Shown here: in pieces, positions 5,272 through 11,624 of the stretch
Position numbering within the stretch: position 1 is the stretch's first letter
Layout: every line of letters begins with the position of its first letter
Assembly: GCA_028877005.1 (NCBI GenBank)
Contig: JAGWPI010000086.1
Coordinates: 1-16,208, forward strand
From: Bacteroidota bacterium
GTDB taxonomy: Bacteria; Bacteroidota; Bacteroidia; Chitinophagales; Chitinophagaceae
Reading direction: 5' to 3'
Length of the DNA: 16,208 bases
The notes under the pieces: generated by a model
Databases searched by the model: none
What the model was told of the DNA's origin: nothing
What the model saw: only the letters and a program-made list of their open reading frames with translations
Made by a program: the position numbers and the translations under genes

Positions 5272-5829
5272 TTATTGAATACCAAATTTTTCTTTGTACA
5301 GTTGATGGCTTCTAACTACGCAAGCTTGTGCTTCTTTTTTACCGTACATGTCACCAACGGTTACTACTTTGTTTTCTAAGGCTTTATATCCCTCAAAAAA
5401 ATTTTTTAATTCAGCCATGTGATGATCTGGTATATCAGCTAATTCCTGTATGTGTTTGTAGGCAGGATCATGGTGTGCCACAGCAATTATTTTATCATCA
5501 ATACCATTTTCATCTTCCATGTGCATAATACCAACAATGCGTGCATCTACAACACAAAGAGGCTGTATATCGAATGAGCACATCACTAAAATATCGAGTG
5601 GATCGCCATCATCAAAATAGGTTTGTGGCACCAAGCCATAATTCATGGGGTAATACATGGCAGAATATAATACCCTGTCTAATCTAAGTAAACCTGATGC
5701 TTTATCTAATTCATACTTCATTCTGCTACCCTTTGGTATTTCTATGATAGTTGTAACTACATTGGGTACATTATCACCAATTGAAATGTGCCAAGGGTGT
5801 TGTACTTGTGGGATGATTGTGGAACTCAT
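5272..5829 (-). CDS. ppa: inorganic pyrophosphatase, family I
   Basis: A 185-aa soluble family I pyrophosphatase that hydrolyses PPi to two phosphates in the cytosol, pulling biosynthetic reactions forward. The family signature DGDPLD is at 74-79. Other active-site features visible are E30-IPKGS with K33, R36, E40, the YPMNYG segment (60-65), and a second acidic cluster at EDENGIDDK. Length is normal. The gene starts 6 bp after enolase and is the last gene before a strong inverted repeat. Family I pyrophosphatases are classically inhibited by fluoride, which traps the enzyme-Mg-substrate complex. Its place downstream of a fluoride riboswitch suggests it supplies extra enzyme under fluoride stress; that role is inference. 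It may be a second copy beside a housekeeping one elsewhere. Confidence 0.96.
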   Translation of the reverse strand: MSSTIIPQVQHPWHISIGDNVPNVVTTIIEIPKGSRMKYELDKASGLLRLDRVLYSAMYYPMNYGLVPQTYFDDGDPLDILVMCSFDIQPLCVVDARIVGIMHMEDENGIDDKIIAVAHHDPAYKHIQELADIPDHHMAELKNFFEGYKALENKVVTVGDMYGKKEAQACVVRSHQLYKEKFGIQ

Positions 5830-5835
5830 AATTTA

Positions 5836-7146
5836 TTATTGATTTTTAAATGCTTTAATACCTGCAAATTTGGCTGCTTTGCCTAATTCATCTTCAATAC
5901 GGATTAATTGGTTGAATTTGGCAATTCGCTCGCCCCTGCAACCACTGCCTGTTTTTAAATGCCCGGCATTAGTTGCCACAGTTAGGTCGGCAATAGTAGT
6001 ATCCTCTGTTTCTCCACTTCGGTGTGAAATAAAACAATTGTATTTATTTTTGTATGCTAAGTTGATAGTATCAATTGTTTCAGTGACAGTACCTATTTGA
6101 TTTAATTTTATAAGAACAGAATTAGCGATGCCTTCATCTATACCTCTTTGTACTATAGATGGATTAGTACAGAAAATGTCATCTCCCGTTAATTCAACTT
6201 TACTTTTTAGTTGGTTTGTTAATAATTTCCACCCTTCCCAATCATTTTCTGCCATTCCGTCTTCTAATAAAATAATTGGATATTGATGAATCCAGCTTTC
6301 CCAAATCTTTAGTAATTCTTCTGAACTCATTTTTTGTTTGGTAGATTTAAAAAACACATACTGCCCATTCTCCCACATTTCGCTGGTAGCAGGATCTATG
6401 CAAATTGAAATATCTTTTCCCGGTGTATAACCCGCTTTTTGAATGGCTTCTAAAATAACTTCAACTGCCTCTTCATTTGATTTTAAGTTGGGTGCAAAGC
6501 CACCCTCGTCACCCACACCTGTATAATAACCTTTTTTATTTAGAATAGATTTTAATGCATGGAAGGTTTCTTCGCCCATTCTAATACTTTCTTTAAAGGA
6601 AGGGGCATTGTGTGGGGCAATCATAAACTCTTGAAAATCAACATTATTATCTGCATGCTTTCCGCCATTAATTACATTCATACAGGGAACAGGCATGGTA
6701 AATTTACCCGATGTATTTAAATATCGATACAATGGCATTTCTAATGTTGCAGCCATTGCACGTGCATATGCCATTGATACAGCCAAAATAGCATTTGCAC
6801 CTAATTTAGCTTTATTGGGTGTGCCATCTAATGCAATAAGTGCATTGTCTATTTCTTGCTGCGCTGAAAATGTTTTTCCTTTAAATTTTTGGGCTATAAT
6901 TTTGTTTACATTATTTACTGCAATAATAACCCCTTTTCCTCCATATCTTTTTGGGTCATTATCCCTTAATTCTACGGCTTCTCTTTCGCCTGTGCTAGCA
7001 CCTGAGGGTACAATGGAGCGCCCCTTGATGTTACGAACCATTTTTTTACTTCCTTTCAATGGTGCTTCAATACTAACTTCGGCCTCTACGGTAGGGTTAC
7101 CTCTTGAATCTAAAACTTCTCTTGCATAAATGTTTGAAATTTTCAT
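5836..7146 (-). CDS. eno: enolase (phosphopyruvate hydratase), variant with basic insertion
   Basis: A 436-aa glycolytic enolase converting 2-phosphoglycerate to phosphoenolpyruvate. Catalytic and metal residues are all visible: H164, E173, E214 (GDEGG), Mg ligands D251, E295 and D322, K347 (LIKLNQ), H375 (SHRSGE) and K398. The N-terminal region differs from ordinary enolases: between the EAEV strand and the PSGASTG catalytic loop (47-53) there are about ten extra residues, rich in Lys and Arg (about 29-43). It lies 29 bp after the 139-aa gene and 6 bp before pyrophosphatase. Enolase is a classic target of fluoride, which binds with Mg and phosphate in the active site. As a riboswitch-linked gene this is likely a stress-induced paralogue rather than the only enolase, but that needs the rest of the genome. 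Confidence 0.96.
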
Positions 7147-7175
7147 ATTTATTTTTATTTGAATTAATAAAATAT

Positions 7176-7595
7176 TTAATTTAGTAAGTGAATCATTTCA
7201 TTAATACTGTTTGTAAATGTATCAATTTTTTTTTGATAGTCAGTCATTAATTCCTTGTCTGTAATACCATATCCCTTCATAGATGAGGCACGAGCACCGG
7301 TAATATCTTCCCATAAAAAATTAGCTTTTACATTCAATTCCTTTTTAAAATTTATTGATTGTGTTGGAACCTGATATGCTTTGCAAAATTCAGCTAATAA
7401 TTGATAAAGTTTATTTAGACTTTCGTGAACCTGTATAAGTAATTGCTCATCATTTAATATTTCATATTGAATGGACACTTGTTTTAATGGCGATTTATGG
7501 GCAATGAGTTGTAATTGCATGTCGAGTAATTTTTTTTCAATCATGTATGCTACTGCATTAAATACATGTTGTTGGTTATCTGGTATTTTATACAA
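7176..7595 (-). CDS. uncharacterised 139-aa protein in the fluoride operon
   Basis: I do not recognise this family. The 139-aa product has no signal peptide and no membrane segment. It appears largely helical: helices roughly at 5-33, 50-73 and 112-138, with a more conserved-looking centre [19 protein letters not shown] (92-110) containing Trp95, Glu96 and Asp97. It has one cysteine (C71). It sits 3 bp after the MFS gene and 29 bp before enolase, so it is very probably translated from the riboswitch-controlled transcript. Possible roles include a helper of the MFS protein or a small four-helix-like stress protein; these are guesses. Codon use and AT content look like its neighbours, so there is no sign of recent import. 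Confidence 0.85.
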
Positions 7596-7598
7596 GGG

Positions 7599-10134: not shown

Positions 10135-11480
10135 TGTTTTCTTTTTTTAATACGTTTAGTTCTTACATCATGTAATGTTTTATCAGTATGGTGCTGTAAA
10201 TTACCTACTTTGGAAACTGCTACTCTTTGCGCATGATAAATACCTGAATGGCCGCTAAAATAATAAGCAGTAAAACTGGCAATTGCATAATAAATAACAT
10301 TAGCACCCCCAAATAATTCAATACCCATAAATGTACATGCAATTGGGGTATTGGTGGCTCCTGCAAATACTGCAATAAAACCTAATCCTGCCATTAAATC
10401 TATTGGTGCTCCCATTAATACACCCAGTGTGTTACCCAATGCAGCGCCAATAAAAAAGAGCGGTGTTACTTCTCCTCCTTTGAAGCCCATACCCAAAGTA
10501 ATTGCTGTAAATAATAATTTCCAAAACCAGCTAAAATAGGTAGCACCTCCGGGTTTAAAACTGCTTATAATGCTGATTCCATTTTTATTGGGATTAGTAA
10601 CACCTAAACTTAGGTAATCTTGTGTTCCAATTAAATAGGTTAGGCCAATAATCATTAATCCCCCTATTACTGGTATCATCCATTTTTGTTTAATCCATCT
10701 ATTACTATAATTTTTAATAGTATGTGCCATTTCTGCAAACAAAAAACCGGCTAAACCAAATAATATTCCTGCAATTATTACTTTAAAGAGTAGGAATAAG
10801 TCGAAATGAACATAATTGAAATATGTTTTTTCAACTGATTCAAATAAAATATGGTATTGTGTGTGGTGAATGCCCCAAGCGCCGCAAGTAATATCTGCTA
10901 AAAAACTTGCAATAAAGCAGGGTAGTAATGCATCATGTTTTATTCTGCCTAATGCTAATACTTCCAAAGCAAAAATAGCTCCTGTAATAGGGGTGCCAAA
11001 TACAGCACCAAAGCCAGCTGCAACGCCAGTTGTAAGTAGCATTCTAATATCTTCTCTCGTTAATTTAAACTGGCGCCCAAAAAAGTTGGCAATGCTGCCA
11101 CCTACTTGAACGGCTGTTCCTTCGCGTCCTGCTGATCCACCAAATAAATGAGTAATAATGGTTGTTATTATTACCAATGGCGCCATTCTAGCCGGTACAC
11201 CACCACCCGGCTCATGAATTTCATCCATGATTAAATTATTTCCTGCTTCTGCATTTTTTCCGGATAATTTGTATAAATAATGTATGCATATACCTGCAAG
11301 AGGTAGCAACCATAATAACCACTGATGTGTATAACGAAAATTTATGGCCCTATCCAATAACCACAAAAACCAGGCAACCAAAGTTCCAACAGACAGAGAA
11401 ACTGGGATTACAAAAAGTGTCCATTTAATTAAATGCGATACAATAAAAACGTGCTCAAAAGAATTTTTTATTCGTTTCAT
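10095..11480 (-). CDS. clcF: CLC-type F-/H+ antiporter (CLC-F, EriC-F)
   Basis: A 461-aa CLC-family membrane protein. The chloride-type GSGIP selectivity motif is replaced by GNNLIMDEI (80-88), and the gating-glutamate motif is GREGT (118-122, Glu120) in place of GREGP. Both changes are hallmarks of the fluoride-specific CLC-F clade, which exchanges F- for H+. Further family segments are [13 protein letters not shown] (152-164) and, near residue 330, GFKGGEVTP. The C terminus is a short basic tail without CBS domains. The gene directly follows a fluoride riboswitch and leads into the DUF190-like, crcB and usp genes. The start codon lies at the end of a 12-bp inverted repeat that reaches back into the aptamer, suggesting control of translation. 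Confidence 0.95.
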
Positions 11481-11481
11481 T

Positions 11482-11531
11482 CCTACAAATTAATGAATCT
11501 TTAAAAATATTTCCGAATCTTAATTTGTAGG
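11482..11531 (-). promoter_or_regulatory. inverted repeat joining aptamer end to the clc ribosome-binding region
   Basis: CCTACAAATTAA at the 3' end of the aptamer and its linker (transcript side of 11520-11531) is perfectly complementary to TTAATTTGTAGG just before the clc start codon (11482-11493). The loop is 26 nt. The second arm contains the only purine-rich ribosome-binding candidate (TAGGA, touching the ATG). The first arm shares two cytosines with the P1 helix (11530-11531), so full pairing and full P1 formation exclude each other at exactly the bases that cover GG of TAGGA. This fits translational control, with fluoride binding favouring an open start. No U-run follows, so it is not a terminator. 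Confidence 0.6.
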
Positions 11532-11580
11532 CGCCATCATCCCTTTTTAGGGGGCAGTTGAACGGTGGACACCATCACCC
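11527..11580 (-). promoter_or_regulatory. fluoride riboswitch (crcB motif) upstream of clcF-DUF190-crcB-usp
   Basis: The minus-strand aptamer starts GGGTGATGGTGTCCACC and ends AGGGATGATGGCGCCTAC. P2 is GGTG/CACC. P1 pairs GGTGTC (11568-11573) with GGCGCC (11530-11535). P3 is CCCT-AAAA-AGGG, preceded by the AACTGCC segment that makes the pseudoknot. The 3' TGATGGCGCCTAC is nearly the class consensus. It lies 46 nt before the clcF start and about 13 nt after a Bacteroidota -7 box. The genes that follow (CLC-F and CrcB) are the textbook fluoride regulon, which supports the call independently of structure. Confidence 0.96.
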
Positions 11581-11593
11581 TTTTTTGATGCCG

Positions 11594-11624
11594 CAAAGAT
11601 ACATTGCTTTTTGTTTTGAAAAAA
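11594..11624 (-). promoter_or_regulatory. promoter of the fluoride operon
   Basis: On the minus strand TATCTTTG (11594-11601) is an exact match to the Bacteroidota -7 box TAnnTTTG. Nineteen nucleotides upstream lies TTTT (11621-11624) in place of the -33 TTTG. Transcription would start near 11587-11589, just before the first paired base of the fluoride aptamer at 11580. That position is what a riboswitch-led mRNA requires. Confidence 0.7.

Follow-up and report, generated by a model that had tools for sequence, protein, structure and literature searches.

Textbooks give the inhibition of enolase as the metabolic effect of fluoride. The closest described counterpart of the locus reported here is the fluoride-riboswitch operon of Enterobacter cloacae FRM, ppaC-uspA-eno-gpmA-crcB-orf5249; its report gives fluoride induction (176-fold for eno) and knock-outs, and proposes 'additional copies' of inhibited enzymes (PMC5533749). 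Other parts of the association are on record in further sources: a 2010 paper connected crcB-motif RNAs with mutS and with ion transport (PMC2864571), enolase with crcB has been published from Listeria plasmids (PMC8508797) and eno, gpmA and crcB from a Pantoea plasmid (PMC5971314), and riboswitch-linked enolase is treated as more of the same enzyme (PMC11139923, PMC5533749). Among the matches listed for the open-licence literature, we found none that treats fluoride-locus enolases as a lineage and none that links dynamin to a fluoride riboswitch; a search of the open-licence literature for a 'fluoride-resistant enolase' likewise found none. Here we describe a locus in a 16,208-nucleotide stretch of a Bacteroidota genome (GenBank assembly GCA_028877005.1, contig JAGWPI010000086.1, positions 1 to 16,208; hereafter the window), in which two fluoride riboswitches precede an export unit and a second unit that includes genes for enolase (eno) and pyrophosphatase (ppa). 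Hydrotalea (Chitinophagaceae) has close relatives of the window genes, and we consider it probable that the window comes from a Hydrotalea-like bacterium and carries a fluoride-resistance locus of two units, one for export and another that provides an enolase of a separate lineage.

The window and the E. cloacae FRM operon share a fluoride riboswitch, an exporter, a universal stress protein, an enolase and a pyrophosphatase, and, as is characteristic of the FRM kind, a single locus of the window combines riboswitch and exporter with eno and ppa. The window differs from that operon in having two riboswitches, a CLC-F transporter besides CrcB and a family I rather than a DHHA2-type pyrophosphatase, and also in carrying an MFS transporter, a 139-aa protein, phosphoesterases and a dynamin-like GTPase. 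Five enterobacterial plasmid islands (L191, L192, L212, L214 and L222) contain much of the FRM gene set together with enolases of the lineage described below; the likeness between FRM and L214 is one of gene order and of the eno and uspA lengths in the paper's table alone. A sequence-only reading of the window had proposed an export-plus-target programme, and the two riboswitches, both kinds of exporter and the target enzymes agree with that proposal, but the idea is not new, having been advanced for E. cloacae FRM (PMC5533749). What is new is the enolase lineage and the dynamin subfamily tied to fluoride loci.

All genes of the locus, its aptamers and the hairpin after ppa lie on the minus strand, and gene families were assigned by Pfam and NCBIfam profile searches. 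The covariance model of the known fluoride riboswitch (RF01734, gathering score 34 bits) matched the window twice in cmscan, once in the export-unit leader, at 11521-11588 with 50.6 bits (E 1.1e-11), and once in that of the target-enzyme unit, at 8835-8901 with 46.4 bits (E 2.7e-10), so that both aptamers exceed the gathering score by 12 to 17 bits. Both had been predicted from the letters, and the predicted position of the second, 8840-8892, falls inside the model match. Aptamer 2 scored above the cut-off in all four Hydrotalea genomes, and its 46.4 bits and its presence in the congeners rule out a chance match at 8835-8901.

The 3' end of aptamer 1, CCTACAAATTAA (11520-11531), is predicted to pair with TTAATTTGTAGG (11482-11493), stopping one base before the start codon of the CLC gene, and the region 11482-11531 is thus a candidate expression platform. 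The 11 to 12 contiguous pairs recur in all four Hydrotalea leaders, and such a run was reached by 0 to 1 of 500 mononucleotide shuffles of each. In the congener G002 the loop is altered while the stem is kept, which fits a functional stem; the stem letters are near-identical among the four leaders, and there is therefore no covariation. Riboswitch 1 looks translational, with a stem that reaches the start codon, in contrast to the Bacillus cereus crcB switch, which is termed transcriptional (PMC8752731). The leader pairing test found no conserved expression-platform pairing at riboswitch 2 among the Hydrotalea congeners. Two weaker RF01734-like sites, on contig C394 of the window's own genome and contig C3 of G002, were rejected as riboswitches at 28.4 and 30.9 bits, below the gathering score. 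These sub-threshold sites (G000:C394:4705-4778 and G002:C3:371733-371812, 28-31 bits) adjoin a tRNA and precede a 371-aa gene resembling cyclopropane fatty acid synthase, an arrangement kept in two congeners.

The export unit begins with a CLC gene (10095-11480; PF00654, Voltage_CLC) whose best solved relative is the CLC-F antiporter 6d0j at 216 bits, compared with 33 bits for the best chloride CLC. The product is 40 residues longer than the solved chain, and its gene is followed by an overlapping DUF190 gene (9766-10134; PF02641, 37.9 bits); judged by its best solved relative, it is of the CLC-F type, a putative fluoride/proton antiporter. The CrcB/Fluc fluoride channel gene (9377-9745) matches PF02537 and TIGR00494 above cut-off (99.2 bits versus 80.45 for TIGR00494) and has solved Fluc relatives, and a universal stress protein gene (8910-9350; PF00582) completes the unit. 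The second unit opens with an MFS transporter (7599-8783; PF07690, MFS_1), relatives of which also occur in further operons with the riboswitch (549, 452 and 377 bits), with RF01734 nearby in two of the three plasmid loci opened. It continues with the 139-aa protein (7176-7595, TTG start), the enolase (5836-7146), which matches the TIGR01060 equivalog at 632.8 bits against a cut-off of 300 and has intact catalytic motifs, and a family I inorganic pyrophosphatase (5272-5829; PF00719). The 139-aa protein has no Pfam or NCBIfam match; an alignment of its family shows conserved FLWED and GYG motifs, and database searches gave eight matches, one of them 99% identical. The family is rare: of 396 genomes in the order only 7 gave a match, which is doubtful in one, and the other six all have the gene in a window-type locus, while a search of genome contigs with the family returned the three congeners only. 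The doubtful match, in G318 (E 8.7e-4), lies in a stretch with neither a window-type gene nor RF01734.

The same gene order with two riboswitches was present in all three of the other Hydrotalea genomes examined, and this identity in three of three congeners argues that the arrangement is not due to chance. The profiles and the conserved order thus agree with the earlier assignment of clcF-DUF190-crcB-usp and MFS-unknown-eno-ppa, each behind an aptamer. In a second genus (G017, G270 and G317) an uninterrupted series of genes follows the riboswitch: crcB, two genes that Pfam assigns in G017 to DUF190 and CYTH, one related to the 139-aa protein gene, and then eno, ppa, phosphoesterase, MFS, dynamin and MutS. 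Across a wider sample we walked downstream from 73 sites over the cut-off in 62 other Bacteroidota genomes; the window's own two sites, 12 sub-threshold sites and 3 fetched sites stood outside this walk. CLC genes lay downstream of a riboswitch in 34 of the 62 genomes; 20 had crcB in that position, 11 eno, 8 dynamin and 7 ppa, and only a minority show the full window-type arrangement. Fluoride riboswitch operons also contained genes for Na/H exchangers, PAP2 phosphatases, CYTH proteins and DUF6062 proteins.

We looked for second copies of the two target enzymes in the window's own genome, a check proposed with the original prediction, and both were present: a housekeeping enolase on contig C67 (6219-7472), 57% identical to the locus enolase, and a family I ppa on contig C175. 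The locus genes are therefore not the only eno and ppa copies of this genome. A household eno occurs elsewhere in the genome in all four Hydrotalea. Another intact eno was found in 13 of the 14 genomes with eno at a fluoride riboswitch, G473 not being counted; G593, which is among the 13, is special in that both its copies are of the fluoride lineage. All eight genomes with eno in the riboswitch locus have a second eno, as against none of six in which the riboswitch loci lack eno, and among six further genomes with eno at the riboswitch five have two and G460 has one. Another family I ppa, the only family counted, was found in six of nine genomes with a riboswitch-linked ppa. In G473 the second enolase is in two pieces (G473:C1:73989-75286; L188, L189), and the intact enolase of that genome is of the fluoride-locus lineage.

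Phylogenetic trees separate the locus enolase from the housekeeping enzyme. In a first tree of 53 rows, 14 riboswitch-locus Bacteroidota enolases, a copy from an Adhaeribacter plasmid, five Chitinophagaceae database copies and the second G593 copy grouped together, apart from 30 others that included paralogues from the same genomes (92/92 and 100/97), and a separate long branch held two rows from enterobacterial plasmids. This grouping departs from the host phylogeny. Plasmid enolases were sampled by opening 25 neighbourhoods, 24 from the 277 records at E<=1e-90 and one from Roseibium found in a looser search; the plasmid rows were hand-picked for spread, most clinical isolates being skipped, and E. 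coli K-12 eno and three additional Bacteroidota enolases were added. In a tree of 79 rows the fluoride-locus enolases lay on one side of a branch, apart from the housekeeping enolases, with support of 98/97, and that side held Bacteroidota, plasmids of Pantoea, Citrobacter, Enterobacter and Klebsiella, Methylocella and Methylocystis, Massilia and Pseudomonas putida, Listeria innocua and Pediococcus, and Rhodococcus. Because the root is unplaced, our claim goes no further than 'one side of a branch'. The locus enolase fell on the fluoride-locus side in every enolase tree. It shares TIGR01060 and the catalytic motifs with housekeeping enolases (the C67 copy and E. coli Eno), but differs from them in lineage and at seven columns of the core set. 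By these trees the locus enolase is a separate lineage and not an extra copy of the housekeeping enzyme, which alters one part of the sequence-only reading: the target enzymes had been taken for supplied copies, and extra eno and ppa genes do exist, but the enolase has its own descent.

The fluoride side of the 79-row tree comprises 40 rows, of which 35 have a known context, and 30 of these (15 from Bacteroidota genomes and 15 from plasmids) stand in or beside a fluoride locus. RF01734 was detected in 14 of the 16 plasmid stretches searched; it was not found in the Persicobacter stretch or in that of E. ludwigii, a record that starts at eno and continues with crcB. In G572 and Massilia the riboswitch that was detected has eno on its upstream side, Rhodococcus has a divergent eno, and Methylocystis rosea has its riboswitch 5 kb upstream of the gene. 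Among the Bacteroidota housekeeping neighbourhoods inspected, which are a minority, those of B. finegoldii (L215) and G770 (L203) are near crcB. The latter stretch (4723-6570) has a housekeeping-type enolase standing divergently beside a riboswitch-crcB unit, possibly an early step of recruitment. On a Listeria innocua plasmid, a sodium riboswitch (RF03071, L210:7289-7332; 40.9 bits, cut-off 40.5) separates crcB-eno, the genes with the fluoride riboswitch, from a cation:proton antiporter gene, and two ion switches may thus share one locus.

A core set of the lineage also differs from housekeeping enolases in residues near the active site. When 25 core fluoride-locus rows were compared with 36 housekeeping rows, 7 of 150 conserved columns were switched (249, 293, 318, 348, 396, 403 and 406), five of them at most 4 residues from a catalytic residue (permutation 0.004 over all columns and 0.04 over conserved columns). 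In E. coli numbering the switches are A244C, S288L, Q313E, F343L (V in most others), Q391H, S398C and D401E. A244C, S288L and Q391H each precede by two positions the residues D246, E290 and K393, and Q313E stands four before D317; these four we take to be metal ligands and the catalytic lysine of the E. coli enzyme. A score over eight residues was 7-8 in 24 of 26 Bacteroidota-branch rows (the others being G786 with 6 and Spirosoma with 5) and in all five enterobacterial rows, 1-4 in nine other lineage members, 0 in all 30 Bacteroidota housekeeping rows and 0-1 in nine other housekeeping rows. G786, which lies outside a fluoride locus, has serine at 288, an observation from one row.

Taken with the gene content, these data are consistent with the following course of events. 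A rise in intracellular fluoride would lead each riboswitch to turn on its own unit. At riboswitch 1, fluoride would hold the end of the aptamer and thereby free the CLC start site from the 12-bp stem. The first unit would then remove fluoride through the CLC-F antiporter and the CrcB channel, and the second would supply the enolase of the fluoride-locus lineage, pyrophosphatase, the MFS transporter and the 139-aa protein; two phosphoesterases, the dynamin-like GTPase and a MutS homologue may follow, perhaps as a separately transcribed part. The lineage enolase might sustain glycolysis through a lower fluoride sensitivity conferred by the surroundings of its metal site, and not merely through its amount. 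Such lower sensitivity is a good hypothesis.

Several observations weigh against the reading of a two-unit resistance locus with a dedicated enolase. Most of the walked riboswitch loci have an exporter and no eno, and the window is contig C2 of an assembly that is 82% complete. Five of the 35 lineage members with known context lie outside fluoride loci (G525, G671, G786, G593:C69 and the Persicobacter plasmid), and in G460 the lineage enolase is the sole eno found, so that an enolase of this lineage can act as an ordinary enolase. Its catalytic residues are unchanged, and the eight-residue pattern is incomplete (1-5 of 8) in Spirosoma, the methanotrophs, Massilia/Pseudomonas, Listeria/Pediococcus, Rhodococcus and G473. 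G473 itself was on the housekeeping side of the first tree and was later seen to lie beside a fluoride riboswitch; it moved to the fluoride side when more rows were added in the 79-row tree. The pyrophosphatase is a weaker case than the enolase for an extra target enzyme: in G002, G012 and G016 the riboswitch-linked copy is the only family I ppa, and in a weakly resolved ppa tree the riboswitch-linked copies did not form one clade, those of Hydrotalea and g15 failing to join and those of G012 and G016 falling among housekeeping ppa, which leaves a dedicated fluoride-locus ppa lineage unsupported. Finally, a hairpin 3' of ppa (5190-5245, -22.9 kcal/mol, z -4.5), present at the same site in all three congeners with partly different stem letters, is a candidate terminator or attenuator and may end or weaken the transcript.

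Some of these points bear on a serious alternative, which could well hold although we lean away from it, namely that eno and ppa are equally fluoride-sensitive and help by amount only, the lineage being that of a mobile island with an old enolase. It accords with the 'additional copies' view published for E. cloacae FRM (PMC5533749), with the unchanged catalytic residues and with the lack of a ppa lineage; it does not explain why the switched residues are non-randomly placed beside metal ligands and the catalytic lysine, or why the same lineage, and not the host's own enolase, is used across phyla. It appears improbable that long branches or the sampling created the tree grouping and that enolases entered fluoride loci on several occasions, their residues converging. 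Several fluoride-locus rows are indeed long-branched, the plasmid rows were chosen by hand, the residue pattern is patchy and G473 changed sides; however, the grouping survived removal of eight rows, seven of them flagged as long (71 rows, 36 fluoride versus 35 housekeeping; 100/97, 200 of 200 bootstraps), and also, though with support lowered to 92/90, the loss of 15 marker columns (72 rows, 7 being left out), and a single Bacteroidota clade was strongly rejected (p-AU 1.8e-10, 72 rows, with the group named after earlier trees). That the eno-ppa unit is a constitutive household supply placed behind riboswitch 2 by happenstance would suit the sole family I ppa of G002 and the lack of a conserved platform at riboswitch 2, but is very improbable given aptamer 2 above cut-off in four of four Hydrotalea, the household eno elsewhere in each of them and the lineage enolases at riboswitch loci in several phyla.

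A separate enolase lineage that accompanies fluoride loci in several phyla makes 'more enzyme or better enzyme?' a direct kinetic comparison of two paralogues from one genome, and strains that defluorinate or make fluorochemicals could gain from it a glycolytic enzyme that tolerates fluoride. A bolder form of the resistance-locus reading, which we entertain tentatively and regard as rather doubtful, is that the enolase is a mobile, fluoride-dedicated enzyme common to many bacteria, with the barrel floor below its catalytic metals and lysine rebuilt so that the Mg-fluoride-phosphate complex would not form readily, and that it would take over from the inhibited housekeeping enolase during exposure to fluoride. 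The dynamin-like GTPase subfamily would then be the second gene dedicated to fluoride, perhaps as a guard of membranes against HF damage. The 139-aa protein and the dynamin-like GTPase add new candidates to the fluoride response.

The locus had been thought to end at ppa, which proved too early a boundary. On the same strand after ppa are the calcineurin-like phosphoesterases MPE2 (4395-5171; PF12850/PF00149) and MPE1 (3606-4376; PF00149), the dynamin-like GTPase (1899-3596; PF00350) and a MutS homologue with domains III and V only (581-1897; PF05192, PF00488). The four Hydrotalea genomes all have two phosphoesterases, dynamin and MutS after ppa, and in the second genus the set recurs with a single phosphoesterase, a relative of MPE2; in the three congeners the locus runs on through two phosphoesterases, the dynamin-like GTPase and the two-domain MutS homologue to a NUDIX gene. 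Because of the hairpin after ppa, riboswitch 2 may or may not control the part with the phosphoesterases, dynamin and MutS. MPE1 also has relatives around the fluoride riboswitch of G029 (L053, 1418-7032), a locus with three flanking genes for calcineurin-like phosphoesterases, which points to a recurrent link.

The window-type dynamin is confined to fluoride riboswitch loci in our sample. Seven matches of at least 100 bits were obtained in 395 Bacteroidota genomes, where up to three first-look candidates were scored per genome and every candidate in 46 genomes, and all seven are at RF01734 loci; the next match, in G718 at 87 bits, is not at such a locus. In G460 and G593 the dynamin is the first gene behind the riboswitch, and in G473 an opposite-strand frame of 144 codons stands between the riboswitch and eno-dynamin. 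A plasmid search for dynamin gave distant partial matches only.

On the other side of the fluoride locus, the window has an adjoining divergent arsenic cluster at 11673-13557, with genes for ArsR, an arsenite methyltransferase and an arsenate-reductase-like phosphatase. Similarly, ars genes border the enterobacterial fluoride islands L191 and L192.

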